Source of the DNA: Pseudoalteromonas shioyasakiensis
GTDB taxonomy: Bacteria; Pseudomonadota; Gammaproteobacteria; Enterobacterales; Alteromonadaceae
Reading direction: 5' to 3'
DNA length: 64,000 nucleotides
Assembly (NCBI GenBank): GCA_013391845.1
Contig: CP058414.1
Coordinates: forward strand, 1,784,501-1,848,500
Position numbers and translations under genes: made by a program. The notes under the pieces were generated by a model. That model worked only from the letters and a program-made list of their open reading frames with translations, searched no databases and was not told the origin of the DNA. Of this stretch, positions 44,885 to 64,000 are shown in pieces. Numbering within the stretch: position 1 is the first letter of the stretch; every line of letters starts with the position of its first letter.

Positions 44885-44965
44885 AACTCGCAACTCGCAA
44901 CTCGCAACTCGCAACTCGCAACTCGCAACTCGCAACTCGCAACTCGCAACTCGCAACTCGCAACT
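44885..44965. repeat. Heptanucleotide tandem repeat, 11 copies of AACTCGC
   Basis: Eleven perfect copies of AACTCGC (44885-44961) plus a partial one. The array ends at the stop codon of the minus-strand DUF3301 gene. It is a variable-number candidate. It is not CRISPR: no spacers. Confidence 0.95.
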
Positions 44966-45264
44966 TAAATCTTATGGGGCGGTATTACTACACTTTTAAG
45001 CAGTTCATTTTCCATGATCAAAACACCTTGATACACGCTTTGTCCATCACTTGAAAACTCAAAAATAAACTCGCTTTTAATGCCTGGTTTACCGCTTTTT
45101 AAAATGCCAATTCTGCGTTTGTTACAAGCAACACTCATCAATTGCACATTCAATTGCTCAATTTGTCTCTGCGCATGAAGGTTAGCAGCTTCGGCTACTT
45201 TTCTGTTTAACCAAAAAAAATAGATGATGCTGCCAATGATGATGAGTGTCCACAAACCTGCCAT
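44965..45264 (-). CDS. DUF3301 family small membrane protein
   Basis: 99 residues. One N-terminal transmembrane helix (LWTLIIIGSIIYFFWLNRKVAEAANLHAQ) is followed by a small soluble domain with LMSVACNKRRIGILKSGKPGIKSEFIFEFSSDG. This is the DUF3301 layout; function unknown. Its ATG directly follows the stop of DUF3549 with no gap, so they form an operon. Its stop abuts the heptamer repeat. Confidence 0.83.
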   Translation of the reverse strand: MAGLWTLIIIGSIIYFFWLNRKVAEAANLHAQRQIEQLNVQLMSVACNKRRIGILKSGKPGIKSEFIFEFSSDGQSVYQGVLIMENELLKSVVIPPHKI

Positions 45265-60240: not shown

Positions 60241-61875
60241 TTACTCTGCAAGTTTAATTTTTAATTTTGCAGCCTGTGCTTTAATTTTTTCGAAACGGGT
60301 TACTTGTTCATCTTCTAATGTTTGAGCATCTAACAGGGCAAAACATTTTTTCGCGAGTGTTAAATTAAACGATTGGCCTTGGTTATTTGTATCGAATAAA
60401 CACTGCAGTAAATTTAAGGCGATGCTGGCATTTTTTGGCATTATTCTAAATGCCTGTGTGAATGCTTCAAGTGCAGTATTTAGCTGGCCTTTATTAAACT
60501 GCGTCACAGCGTGGTTATTGAGCTCTTTTGGACCTAACTTAATATCACGCCGCTCAGTTTGTTGCTGTTGAATATAACGTAAATATACCGGATCGCTTAT
60601 TGATGGGTGACGTTCACAGTGCGTTATTATTTGGTTAAATAGCATCTGTGCTTTGTGGTGAAAACCAAGCTCATGAAACGCTTTCGCCTTATCGAGCGCA
60701 CCATCTACTGAACGAATTTGAGTGTCACTTTCATCCAGTTGATTGATAAGTGCTTTAGCCTTTTGATGTTCATCCTTTAAATAATGCAAACGCGCATTGA
60801 GAACGTCAATCTGTGTTTGGTTATTACTATTCGGAAACTGCTTTTTTAAATCACTTAAGTATTGGTTTGTCTGTCTTGAAATACGATTAACTTGATCGGT
60901 CTGATCTGTAGTTAAAGCAAAATCAATACCGGCACGAGCCGCATTTAAATACACATCAGGGTTGTCGTGAATAGAGTGCTTTGCGTAACTAGCAATGTCT
61001 TTTTGAGTTAGATAATTCTTTTCGTAGTCGTGATTAAGTAACGATACATGACTCAAGGTTTTTTGACGGTCAATATTACGTGGCGCAATTTCAACAGCTT
61101 GACTAAAAAACTGCTGAGCCTCATCAAACTTATGCAGCTTTATTTCTAATCGACCGAGTAAATCAAGAGCAACGAGTCGAGTTTCACTGCGCTGCAACAT
61201 TGTCTTCAGCATACGATGTGCAAGTGTGTGTTCATTATTGGCAATGAGTGCTTCTACTAAACCTACTTTTGCCCATGTGAATTTTTGAATATCGAGCACT
61301 GATTTAAAGAATGTTTTTGCATCTTCAAAGCGTTTGAGGCGAAGTAGGGCATCACCTTTTAATCTCAATAGAATCGCGCTGTAACTATTACCTTTGTTTT
61401 GCAGCAAGGTATCAATTTGTTTAATTGCTTTGGAGTCATTCCCATCATCAATAAGTTGATAAATTTGATGTAGGTTACTTTTGCGCAATAACACTTTTTC
61501 AATACGATTTTTTAATTCGTTAATTGTAAAGGGTTTAACTAAGAAATCATCTGGTTGTAGCTCGAGTACACTGTGAACTAAAGAGCCACTTGTTTCAGCT
61601 GAAATAAAAATAAAGCCGGTAGAGTTTTTTATAAGGCGCTTCATTTTCAGCTCTTCATAAAGCTGATAACCATCTTGATGTTTACTTAAGTTAAATGAAC
61701 AAACGATGAGGTCAAATTGCTCAATTTGACATTGTTCTTTTGCTGCAATGGCATGCTCTGCAAAACGCAATTGACGAAAGCCCAACCCTTCTAAGGATTG
61801 TTTCATATAGCTTTGAGCAAGAGGCTGCTCTTCAACTATTAAAATTTTGGCTTTCGAAAAAATCTTTGCAGGCAT
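60241..61875 (-). CDS. TPR protein with a degenerate (non-phosphorylatable) receiver domain
   Basis: 544 residues. Residues 8-128 are a CheY-like receiver: ILIVEEQP has Glu15-Glu16 for the usual acidic pair, DLIVCSFNL has Ser60 where the phospho-accepting Asp belongs, while Ser92 and Lys114 (FLVKPF) remain. TPR-like helical repeats run from about 140 to 540. Without the Asp it cannot be phosphorylated in the ordinary way and may act as a constitutive or protein-binding scaffold. It is the first gene of the operon with the solute-binding protein and the hybrid kinase. Confidence 0.87.
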   Translation of the reverse strand: MPAKIFSKAKILIVEEQPLAQSYMKQSLEGLGFRQLRFAEHAIAAKEQCQIEQFDLIVCSFNLSKHQDGYQLYEELKMKRLIKNSTGFIFISAETSGSLVHSVLELQPDDFLVKPFTINELKNRIEKVLLRKSNLHQIYQLIDDGNDSKAIKQIDTLLQNKGNSYSAILLRLKGDALLRLKRFEDAKTFFKSVLDIQKFTWAKVGLVEALIANNEHTLAHRMLKTMLQRSETRLVALDLLGRLEIKLHKFDEAQQFFSQAVEIAPRNIDRQKTLSHVSLLNHDYEKNYLTQKDIASYAKHSIHDNPDVYLNAARAGIDFALTTDQTDQVNRISRQTNQYLSDLKKQFPNSNNQTQIDVLNARLHYLKDEHQKAKALINQLDESDTQIRSVDGALDKAKAFHELGFHHKAQMLFNQIITHCERHPSISDPVYLRYIQQQQTERRDIKLGPKELNNHAVTQFNKGQLNTALEAFTQAFRIMPKNASIALNLLQCLFDTNNQGQSFNLTLAKKCFALLDAQTLEDEQVTRFEKIKAQAAKLKIKLAE

Positions 61876-62060
61876 TGGACTTGCGACTAAGTGACATTAA
61901 CAACGACTATAATAAACAGTCTAGCTGCTGACAAGGCAAATTACAGCTTTTGCAGCGATTTAAAATTTACTTTTAGGCTATATCAATAGTGGTGAGGTTG
62001 GTATTAGAGTTTAAATCTCAAATGTCAGATAAAAGGAACTAGATACTAGAGGTTTATATG

Positions 62061-62724
62061 TGGTGGGTCGTACTGGACTAGAACCATCGAGCCTGTGTTT
62101 TGTTAATGGTGGCGATGCTTTTGAAAGCTAAGGGTAAAATAAGGAAATATATTTAATGAAGTGTCTATATGTGGTGGGTCGTACTGGACTTGAATCATCG
62201 AGCCTGTGTTTTGTTAATGGTGGCGATGCTTTTGAAAGCTAAGGGTAAAATAAGGAAATATATTTAATGAAGTGTCTATATGTGGTGGGTCGTATTGGAC
62301 TAGAACCATCGAGCCTGTGTTTTGTTAATGGTGGCGATGCTTTTGAAAGCTAAGGGTAAATAAGGAAATATATTTAATGAAGTGTTTATATGTGGTGGGT
62401 CGTACTGGACTAGAACCATCGAGCCTGTGTTTTGTTAATTGTGGCGATGCTTTTGAAAGCTAAGGGTAAAATAAAGAAATATATTTAATGAAGAGTCTAT
62501 ATGTGGTGGGTCGTACTGGACTAGAACCATCGAGCCTGTGTTTTGTTAATGGTGGCGATGCTTTTGAAAGCTAAGGGTAAAATAAGGAAATATATTTAAT
62601 GAAGTGTTTATATGTGGTGGGTCGTACTGGACTAGAACCATCGAGCCTGTGTTTTGTTAATGGTGGCGATGCTTTTGAAAGCTAAGGGTAAATAAGGAAA
62701 TATATTTAATGAAGTGTTTATATG
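62061..62724 (-). repeat. Six tandem ~111-bp repeats carrying the tRNA-Val 3' end (rtT-like)
   Basis: Units start at 62061, 62172, 62283, 62393, 62504 and 62615 and are nearly identical. Each begins, on the plus strand, with the same 19 bases as the tRNA-Val gene 3' end (TGGTGGGTCGTACTGGACT; third unit has one change), then a body that keeps tRNA length and parts of the D arm but loses the acceptor and anticodon pairing. A spacer of about 37 bases follows. Read on the minus strand they lie directly behind the tRNA-Val genes, so one transcript would contain both. The layout resembles the E. coli tyrT repeats that carry 19 bp of tRNA-Tyr and yield rtT RNA. Confidence 0.85.
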
Positions 62725-62800
62725 TGGTGGGTCGTACTGGACTTGAACCAGTGACCCTCGCCTTGTAAGGGCGATGCTCTCCCAACTGAGCTAACGACCC
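62725..62800 (-). tRNA. tRNA-Val(UAC), copy 1 (last in transcript)
   Basis: 76 bases with encoded CCA. On the minus strand GGGTCGT pairs with ACGACCC; D arm AGCTCAGTTGGGAGAGC; anticodon loop CTTACAA, giving UAC (Val); T arm CTGGTTCAAGTCCAG. It is followed at once by the six degenerate repeats. Confidence 0.98.
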
Positions 62801-62833
62801 ACATATAAATTGCCTAGTGGCTTAAAGATTAAA

Positions 62834-62909
62834 TGGTGGGTCGTACTGGACTTGAACCAGTGACCCTCGCCTTGTAAGGGCGATGCTCTCCCAACTGAGC
62901 TAACGACCC
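62834..62909 (-). tRNA. tRNA-Val(UAC), copy 2
   Basis: Identical in sequence to copy 1, CCA encoded, anticodon UAC. Confidence 0.98.
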
Positions 62910-62944
62910 ATATAATCTTTTTCTTCGCTTACCATCGGTGAAAA

Positions 62945-63020
62945 TGGTGGGTCGTACTGGACTTGAACCAGTGACCCTCGCCTTGTAAGGGCGATGCTCT
63001 CCCAACTGAGCTAACGACCC
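62945..63020 (-). tRNA. tRNA-Val(UAC), copy 3
   Basis: Identical to copy 1. The 5' flank differs from the other copies. Confidence 0.98.
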
Positions 63021-63063
63021 GCGAAGATTAATCTAAATGAGAACACCACTAAAATGTGTTTAA

Positions 63064-63139
63064 TGGTGGGTCGTACTGGACTTGAACCAGTGACCCTCGC
63101 CTTGTAAGGGCGATGCTCTCCCAACTGAGCTAACGACCC
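63064..63139 (-). tRNA. tRNA-Val(UAC), copy 4
   Basis: Identical to copy 1, CCA encoded. Confidence 0.98.
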
Positions 63140-63178
63140 ATTTAGATTTTTTGTAATATGAACACCATTAGTGAATAA

Positions 63179-63254
63179 TGGTGGGTCGTACTGGACTTGA
63201 ACCAGTGACCCTCGCCTTGTAAGGGCGATGCTCTCCCAACTGAGCTAACGACCC
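63179..63254 (-). tRNA. tRNA-Val(UAC), copy 5
   Basis: Identical to copy 1. Its lower-coordinate spacer shares GAACACCATTAGTGAATAA with that of copy 7, a sign of duplication. Confidence 0.98.
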
Positions 63255-63280
63255 ATATTACATGCAGCCCTATTTCTTAA

Positions 63281-63356
63281 TGGTGGGTCGTACTGGACTT
63301 GAACCAGTGACCCTCGCCTTGTAAGGGCGATGCTCTCCCAACTGAGCTAACGACCC
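63281..63356 (-). tRNA. tRNA-Val(UAC), copy 6
   Basis: Identical to copy 1; separated from copy 5 by 26 bases. Confidence 0.98.
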
Positions 63357-63392
63357 ATTAAGAATTTAGATATGAACACCATTAGTGAATAA

Positions 63393-63468
63393 TGGTGGGT
63401 CGTACTGGACTTGAACCAGTGACCCTCGCCTTGTAAGGGCGATGCTCTCCCAACTGAGCTAACGACCC
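63393..63468 (-). tRNA. tRNA-Val(UAC), copy 7 (first in transcript)
   Basis: Identical to copy 1; closest to the promoter at 63509-63536. Confidence 0.98.
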
Positions 63469-63500
63469 ATATCTAAAACAACTCATTGCTGCGTTGTTGT

Positions 63501-63536
63501 GGGGCGCTATTATAGATAGAGTTGTAAATGTGTCAA
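63501..63536 (-). promoter_or_regulatory. Consensus sigma-70 promoter of the tRNA-Val operon with GC-rich discriminator
   Basis: On the minus strand TTGACA (63536-63531) and TATAAT (63514-63509) are both perfect hexamers, 16 bases apart, followed by AGCGCCCC. A GC-rich discriminator after a strong promoter is the mark of stringently controlled stable-RNA operons. Transcription would start near 63502 and read through all seven tRNAs. Confidence 0.9.
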
Positions 63537-63540
63537 CACT

Positions 63541-64000
63541 TGAATGAGTAAAAATGTGTTAGATGCAGCTTTTATAAACAATGACATGGCATTTAAGCAT
63601 TTTTTGGTGAACAAATATGCAATTTATATTCATAACCTTGTATTTATAAGTTGATCTATAGCTCTATGACCTTAGTAAAATGATCGAAGTGATATGAGAA
63701 CAGTAAAGCTTTATAGCAGTTTCTTCGTATCAATAAGTTTGCATCAGTTAAAAGCGACCTATTTTGTATATTAAAAAACAACATAGGGTACGCTTAGTTT
63801 CTTTATTTAAAGCTTTAGGTAGCGATCTTTGTTTTGCATATAAATGTATACCTTATTTAAATAAGCAAGTTTATAGGCAGGAAGCCTTTAAATGAGAAAC
63901 CAGTACTGTAAGTAGCTCAAAATAGCGAATTTGATAGCACTTTGTTTAAAACACCACCGTAACGGATTGATATTTAGTCAGCTTGTTGAAATTTAAATCA
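63541..64000. other. AT-rich stretch without recognised gene
   Basis: 460 bases upstream of the tRNA promoter. I see no reading frame with a ribosome site, no RNA gene and no repeat. The UP-element region of the tRNA promoter may lie in the first part. Confidence 0.5.

Follow-up and report, generated by a model that had tools for sequence, protein, structure and literature searches.

The tRNA-Val operon of Pseudoalteromonas shioyasakiensis ends in six tandem units which, by alignment, are degenerate copies of tRNA-Val without its 5' acceptor strand. The array bears the hallmark of tRNA-linked repeats (TLRs) and, as far as its sequence indicates, belongs with them, in the class of rtT. We consider it probable that decaying tRNA copies form TLRs and that the set in the trailer constitutes a Rho-dependent terminator; both transcription and Rho dependence are what we infer.

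All coordinates refer to the window, the whole 64,000 nt stretch of DNA that was analysed, and the operon lies on its minus strand. A promoter-like site at 63509–63536 (TTGACA, 16 nt, TATAAT) matches the consensus at 12 of 12 positions; it is this perfect match, and not the promoter scan as a whole (4 sites vs 5.7 in shuffled sequences), that argues for a promoter of the Val operon. Seven tRNA-Val(UAC) genes were called by ARAGORN at 62725–63468, each scoring 71.9 bits with the Rfam tRNA model. Directly 3' of the last one, and on the same strand, the six units of 110–111 nt occupy 62061–62724: unit 1 at 62615–62724 (110 nt, with the tRNA 3' end and CCA at its end), unit 2 at 62504–62614 (111 nt), unit 3 at 62393–62503 (111 nt), unit 4 at 62283–62392 (110 nt, with a single change in the last 19 nt), unit 5 at 62172–62282 (111 nt) and unit 6 at 62061–62171 (111 nt). 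Tandem Repeats Finder called the segment 62055–62750 with a period of 111, 6.3 copies and 96% matches. The six repeats of about 111 bp described in a first-pass annotation of this DNA were thus found as described; the range given there, 62061..62800, contains them but also takes in the last intact tRNA gene (62725–62800). The annotation had given the units 19 bases in common with the tRNA 3' end, CCA included. The last 19 nt of the tRNA are indeed exact in five of the six units, but the shared end is longer: 24 of the last 25 nt are identical in five units and 23 of 25 in the remaining one. In every unit CATATA stands directly 3' of the CCA, as it does behind the last tRNA. The degenerate tRNA body that had been proposed was also recognised in the alignment with tRNA-Val, in which the D-arm remnant is shortened, the GCATCGCC stretch is present, the anticodon arm is changed and the 5' acceptor strand is absent. 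The degree of decay varies from unit to unit, and neither ARAGORN nor the Rfam tRNA model called a tRNA inside the units.

The whole trailer, which separates the last tRNA from the gene that follows, covers 849 nt (61876–62724, minus strand) and is the proposed Rho-dependent terminator region. Unit 6 is separated by 185 nt from the start of the next gene (60241–61875, same strand, 544 aa), which is preceded by a promoter-like site of its own at 61906–61934 (minus strand; TTGTCA, 17 nt, TATAGT; 10 of 12 consensus matches); of 100 genus genomes compared, only 50 showed this promoter pattern, a point against the proposed terminator. From a reading of its sequence, made without a family-library search, the gene product looks response-regulator/TPR-like. 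With a threshold of E <= 1e-60 it was recovered in 107 of the 108 genus genomes; it is 98% identical in genome G055, and its gene was used as the syntenic anchor for locating the Val loci of relatives. Back to back with the Val operon, beyond the window end on the plus strand, one tRNA-Ala and seven tRNA-Glu genes form a divergent operon; an opposite-strand tRNA-Ala was present at the Val locus in all 40 relatives' loci examined. A DNA search found units at no other locus of the genome (all 8 matches were at the Val locus, some of them merely tRNA ends), and among the 31 tRNA groups of the genome this operon alone has an exact 3'-end copy of at least 10 nt within 500 nt. A second valine operon with repeats, that of tRNA-Val(GAC) (minus strand), carries degenerate tRNA-Val(GAC) units in its trailer and in the spacer between its second and third tRNAs. 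These units end in near-copies of the tRNA 3' end, and a hairpin terminator is present further down in that trailer.

The 108 genomes of the genus yielded 101 loci, seven being left out (six mostly as contig ends at the gene, one without the anchor gene), and 90 of these were readable after the removal of one without the anchor gene, seven without a tRNA and three ending in tRNA-Glu. At least one unit was found in the trailer of 50 of the 90 readable Val operons, in one to eight copies, and none in that of the other 40. The expectation that the repeats would track the tRNA-Val locus and vary in copy number among relatives was therefore borne out. Matches were obtained in 71 of the 108 genomes, a figure that should not be read as the number of units, since many of them cover the tRNA end alone. 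A search with a degenerate unit pattern returned seven records, all from Pseudoalteromonas: P. arabiensis, P. shioyasakiensis (two), P. lipolytica, P. gelatinilytica and two other species. The array as such, and the fact that relatives have it again at this locus, exclude a chance origin. In a check independent of the 3' end, 86 of 99 exact AGCATCGCC motifs in trailers were followed, 30–85 nt behind, by the 12-nt end of the genome's own tRNA with at most two mismatches, as against 0 of 99 after shuffling (81 genomes having three or more tRNA-Val genes, with 60 nt trimmed from the end of every trailer).

Across the genus the trailer units are mostly 80 to 200 nt long and their bodies vary widely between clades, falling into 12 sequence groups under lenient linkage, with three large families. 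In another clade hairpins apparently replace the D-arm, as judged by eye. In the window's clade, 24 distinct units from 10 genomes share a largely constant block that runs from AAAAGCATCGCC to the CCA and measures some 62 nt, and the half preceding it varies freely in sequence and length. These units are accordingly not random decayed fragments without conservation, the finding that was to have spoken against the first description. Unit lengths in this clade are 96, 100, 107, 108, 110, 111, 118 and 120 nt. Small reading frames recur in the units; those on the minus strand have 31 codons, with 39 in a single unit, and those on the plus strand 23–32. The 31-codon minus-strand frame recurs over the unit borders (window 62103–62641) and recalls E. 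coli tpr inside rttR. A coding role is probably not to be retained, since the unit lengths of the clade would break the frame, and what stays constant is the tRNA end.

Integrases that target tRNA genes commonly use a segment of the tRNA 3' end. The 19–25 nt kept in the units, CCA included, are this very part, and the units could accordingly be traces or decoys of elements integrating at tRNA 3' ends, the kept segment being the attachment-site core. We regard this as very improbable: the trailer is short and is bounded by the same gene in nearly all species, and the units consist of decayed tRNA rather than cargo.

The end of the upstream tRNA is described as the hallmark of E. coli tRNA-linked repeats in the available sections of PMC8144298, and the Pseudoalteromonas units follow the same rule. 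Three versions of the tRNA acceptor stem are common in the genus and are often mixed in one operon. In such mixed arrays, 70 of 73 3'-end copies carry the version of the immediately upstream tRNA, the three exceptions being CGA-to-CAA in two instances, a difference of a single base, and CAA-to-TCA in one. Over all 90 arrays, 186 of 192 copies match the tRNA just upstream, with 2 ties and 4 others. Genome G011 illustrates this succession: behind a TCA-type tRNA stands one copy of TCA type, behind a later CGA-type tRNA there are two of CGA type, and behind the last tRNA, again TCA-type, three of TCA type. An exception was seen in the Val(GAC) operon of the P. shioyasakiensis genome, where two interior units match the operon's first tRNA and not the adjacent one.

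Local copying would produce the same adjacency rule. This is what is expected if the units are neutral debris, in which case tRNA arrays would gain and lose copies through slippage and unequal exchange, dead copies would be re-amplified, and the 3' ends would be kept by local gene conversion, with no function involved. All grades of decay are found among the units, and the size of the tRNA-Val array is very labile, with 23 genes in G100, 15 in G044 and 14 in G070. The chimeric acceptor stems seen in G004, G019 and G100 point to local exchange of this kind. In the G100 array (contig C1, 2139936–2143203), 17 of the 23 tRNA-Val have the chimeric acceptor stem GGGTCGT/ATCACCC, with one mismatch expected. 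Nevertheless, we consider a purely neutral origin unlikely. It leaves unexplained the constant block of the window's clade beside its variable half, and also the unequal loss of G and C that distinguishes the units of the trailer from those located between the tRNA genes.

The 55 interior units, from 22 genomes, had a mean C-skew of -0.07, with 3 above zero; the 127 trailer units, from 47 genomes, had a mean of 0.29, with 120 above zero (units with N, or shorter than 50 or longer than 230 nt, were excluded here and from the family comparison). These counts ignore relatedness, and the independent events are far fewer than the units, which come from few families. Among the 18 genomes with both kinds, the trailer units were higher in 16, equal in G072 and lower in G066, in which an interior unit of the trailer family is followed by one more tRNA gene. 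In three genomes with both kinds, G072, G093 and G098, the trailer units had a C-skew of -0.03, 0.00 and -0.02, respectively. The contrast was kept within the two families in which both kinds are numerous (interior -0.08 vs trailer 0.21, and -0.09 vs 0.10). When compared with the parent tRNA in pairwise alignments with free left ends, trailer units keep 85% of C and 62% of G, and interior units keep 72% of each. With another filter, G retention was lower than C retention in 44 of 50 genomes, and G-to-A was the commonest change. In these comparisons the identity of the 3' end is inflated by the way in which units were detected (a 12-mer with at most one mismatch), and for the 5' acceptor strand the identity is about 0.5, which free alignment may reach by chance.

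The excess of C over G extends to the whole trailer. The 849 nt of the window trailer contain C at 0.26 and G at 0.11, the C-rich, G-poor composition looked for in a Rho terminator. This C-skew was never reached in the background, the first 62 kb of the window on both strands (0 of 4,948, 0 of 4,936 and 0 of 4,912 overlapping windows at 150, 300 and 600 nt, respectively), and the unbroken run of C over G extends for 734 windows of 70 nt, compared to a maximum of 404 in 612 background windows. In the same 81 genomes of the genus, again with trailers shortened by 60 nt at the end, the mean C-skew was 0.38 in the trailers vs 0.04 in the same-strand spacers between the tRNAs of the same operons. 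The trailer was above its own spacers in 75 of the 81; when split by tRNA type, it was so in 24 of 24, in 28 of 29 and in 23 of 28. Since the spacers share the strand and the operon, a strand-wise mutation bias does not account for the difference. Trailers without units are equally skewed (0.44, n=35, and 0.34, n=46, with units); the composition is therefore a property of the trailer, one that the units follow and for which they are not needed. Elsewhere in the window, a perfect heptamer array, AACTCGC in 11.6 copies (44885–44965), stands at the very end of a minus-strand gene (44965–45264); it is G-rich on the strand of its gene and is thus not of the C>G kind.

No hairpin-and-T-run terminator was detected in the window trailer by two scans; the two sites returned by the terminator scan of the window were both in spacers between tRNAs, and were no more than in shuffled sequences. 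Likewise, 88 of the 90 Val trailers of the genus were without a terminator-like hairpin, the two candidates both being weak. Among the tRNA groups of the P. shioyasakiensis genome, those without a hairpin within 90 nt had a C-skew of 0.29 (n=21, a set that includes rRNA-operon tRNAs and single tRNAs which perhaps need no terminator) vs 0.06 for those with a hairpin (n=10; one-sided p 0.006). The tRNA-Tyr trailer of this genome (minus strand) consists of a different kind of array, 23 copies of a 15-bp sequence nearly free of G. The corresponding trailers of 20 relatives have other sequences, with tandem arrays in 5 of the 20; C-skew exceeded 0.2 in 20 of the 21 tRNA-Tyr loci, and none had a hairpin within 90 nt. 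Short tandem arrays, of TTTCTAA and TATCTCG type, were also seen in the Met-Leu-Gln and Asp trailers of this genome, with no hairpin terminator within 90 nt. Rho is encoded in the genome, and the available sections of PMC9160355 give C-rich, G-poor RNA as the signature of Rho loading and count tRNA genes among those regulated by Rho. They also state that strong terminators are not scaled to the C>G bubble.

We propose the following model for the Val operon. Copies of the tRNA would decay anywhere in the array and give rise to TLRs, of which those in the trailer would be shaped into a Rho-dependent terminator. The units make up most of the 3' trailer of the operon, which is one long C-rich, G-poor stretch; on this stretch Rho would most likely load and stop RNA polymerase ahead of the next gene. 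Each unit may represent one more segment for Rho loading, so that the copy number would be free to change without loss of function. The folding of the first unit was compared with that of shuffled sequences in 50 genomes (mean z of -1.1, range -5.5 to 0.9); some units are predicted to be more stable than shuffles, which is a poor fit to a plain unstructured Rho site. A stronger version of the model, which we put forward with less than even confidence, is that dying tRNA genes are recruited as modular building blocks of Rho terminators: the copies in the trailer would lose G, keep C and the processing end, and multiply in tandem, and their interior sisters would stay balanced, sparing the operon an early stop. 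If true, it would provide a birth route for bacterial TLRs in general and a reason for the repeated tRNA end.

The kept tRNA ends might themselves be 3'-processing sites cutting the trailer RNA into CCA-ended pieces, by analogy with the rRNA-linked repeats of E. coli, whose repeated end Stenum and co-workers suggested as an RNase E target (PMC8144298, available sections); this is a tentative idea, which we think rather more likely to fail than to hold. The same pattern would also arise if the ends were homogenised locally with the neighbouring tRNA gene. Nothing was found in favour of the first-pass suggestion that the acceptor end may bait Val-tRNA enzymes. Another reading is that each unit is set free as a separate small RNA of about 111 nt that acts in regulation, as a sponge for a protein or an RNA, in the manner of RrA/RrB/RrF. 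The rRNA-linked members of E. coli are processed and bind Hfq and CsrA according to the same sections, which add that the 19 TLRs of E. coli tRNA operons score low for CsrA binding. The block of some 62 nt that is conserved among units of the window's clade fits such a role, but the wide divergence of the bodies between clades and the weak consensus fold of the 24 clade units (-6.3 kcal/mol) make it improbable.

This genus offers a separation between the rule by which units are made, the copying of the adjacent tRNA end, and an apparent shaping pressure, C without G only where transcription must stop. With 50 species-level genomes carrying trailer units, mixed tRNA arrays, and units both between and behind the tRNAs, it amounts to a natural experiment in which the old question of TLR function becomes testable.

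TLRs have been on record since 1978; in E. coli K-12, 22 of them at ten loci are listed in the available sections of PMC8144298, which state that they had no known function. The array of P. shioyasakiensis is therefore not new as a kind. A search of the open-licence literature found nothing on a C>G composition of tRNA-linked repeats, or on such repeats in Pseudoalteromonas, and an Rfam search of 61800–63700 gave no RtT match at E <= 1, the presence of RtT in the library copy being unconfirmed. The link to the stringent response that had been suggested is not supported, as the starvation phenotype once tied to rtT has, according to the literature available in part, since been retracted. The likeness in design to the tyrT repeats was correctly recognised: when recomputed from MG1655, the downstream tyrT repeats reproduce 18 nt of the tRNA 3' end exactly. 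Repeats were found in three of the seven tRNA operons computed in MG1655 (tyr, arg and lys), in spacers and trailers alike, for a total of 12, all of which repeat 18 nt of the tRNA end without a mismatch. In both organisms, the unit ends in the CCA-bearing 3' end of the upstream tRNA, and units occur in tandem behind the last tRNA and singly between tRNAs. In the Val operon of the window they lie directly behind the seven tRNAs, and in relatives also between them.

The bodies of the units differ between the two organisms, both by eye and in composition. In Pseudoalteromonas the body is a decayed tRNA, C-rich and G-poor in trailers, whereas by eye those of E. coli look rich in GC, and they have little C-skew: 0.02, 0.05 and -0.05 over the first 150 nt of the MG1655 tyr, arg and lys trailers, respectively, and 0.13 over the tyr trailer as a whole. 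The Pseudoalteromonas units thus share the rule and the place of TLRs, and not their composition; the role of Rho is a claim about mechanism and not about family membership. The tyrT operon of E. coli provides the nearest parallel for termination. Kupper et al. are said to have reported in 1978 that its termination depends on Rho, and the termination site reportedly lies in the repeats. It is likewise a tRNA operon with repeats in the trailer and a reported Rho-dependent end; unlike there, where Rho was shown by experiment, in Pseudoalteromonas we infer its action. RrA/RrB/RrF of E. coli resemble the present units in repeating the 3' end of the upstream stable RNA, a proposed RNase E processing signal in the available sections of PMC8144298, but they belong to rRNA operons, where two hairpin terminators enclose them, and they bind both Hfq and CsrA.
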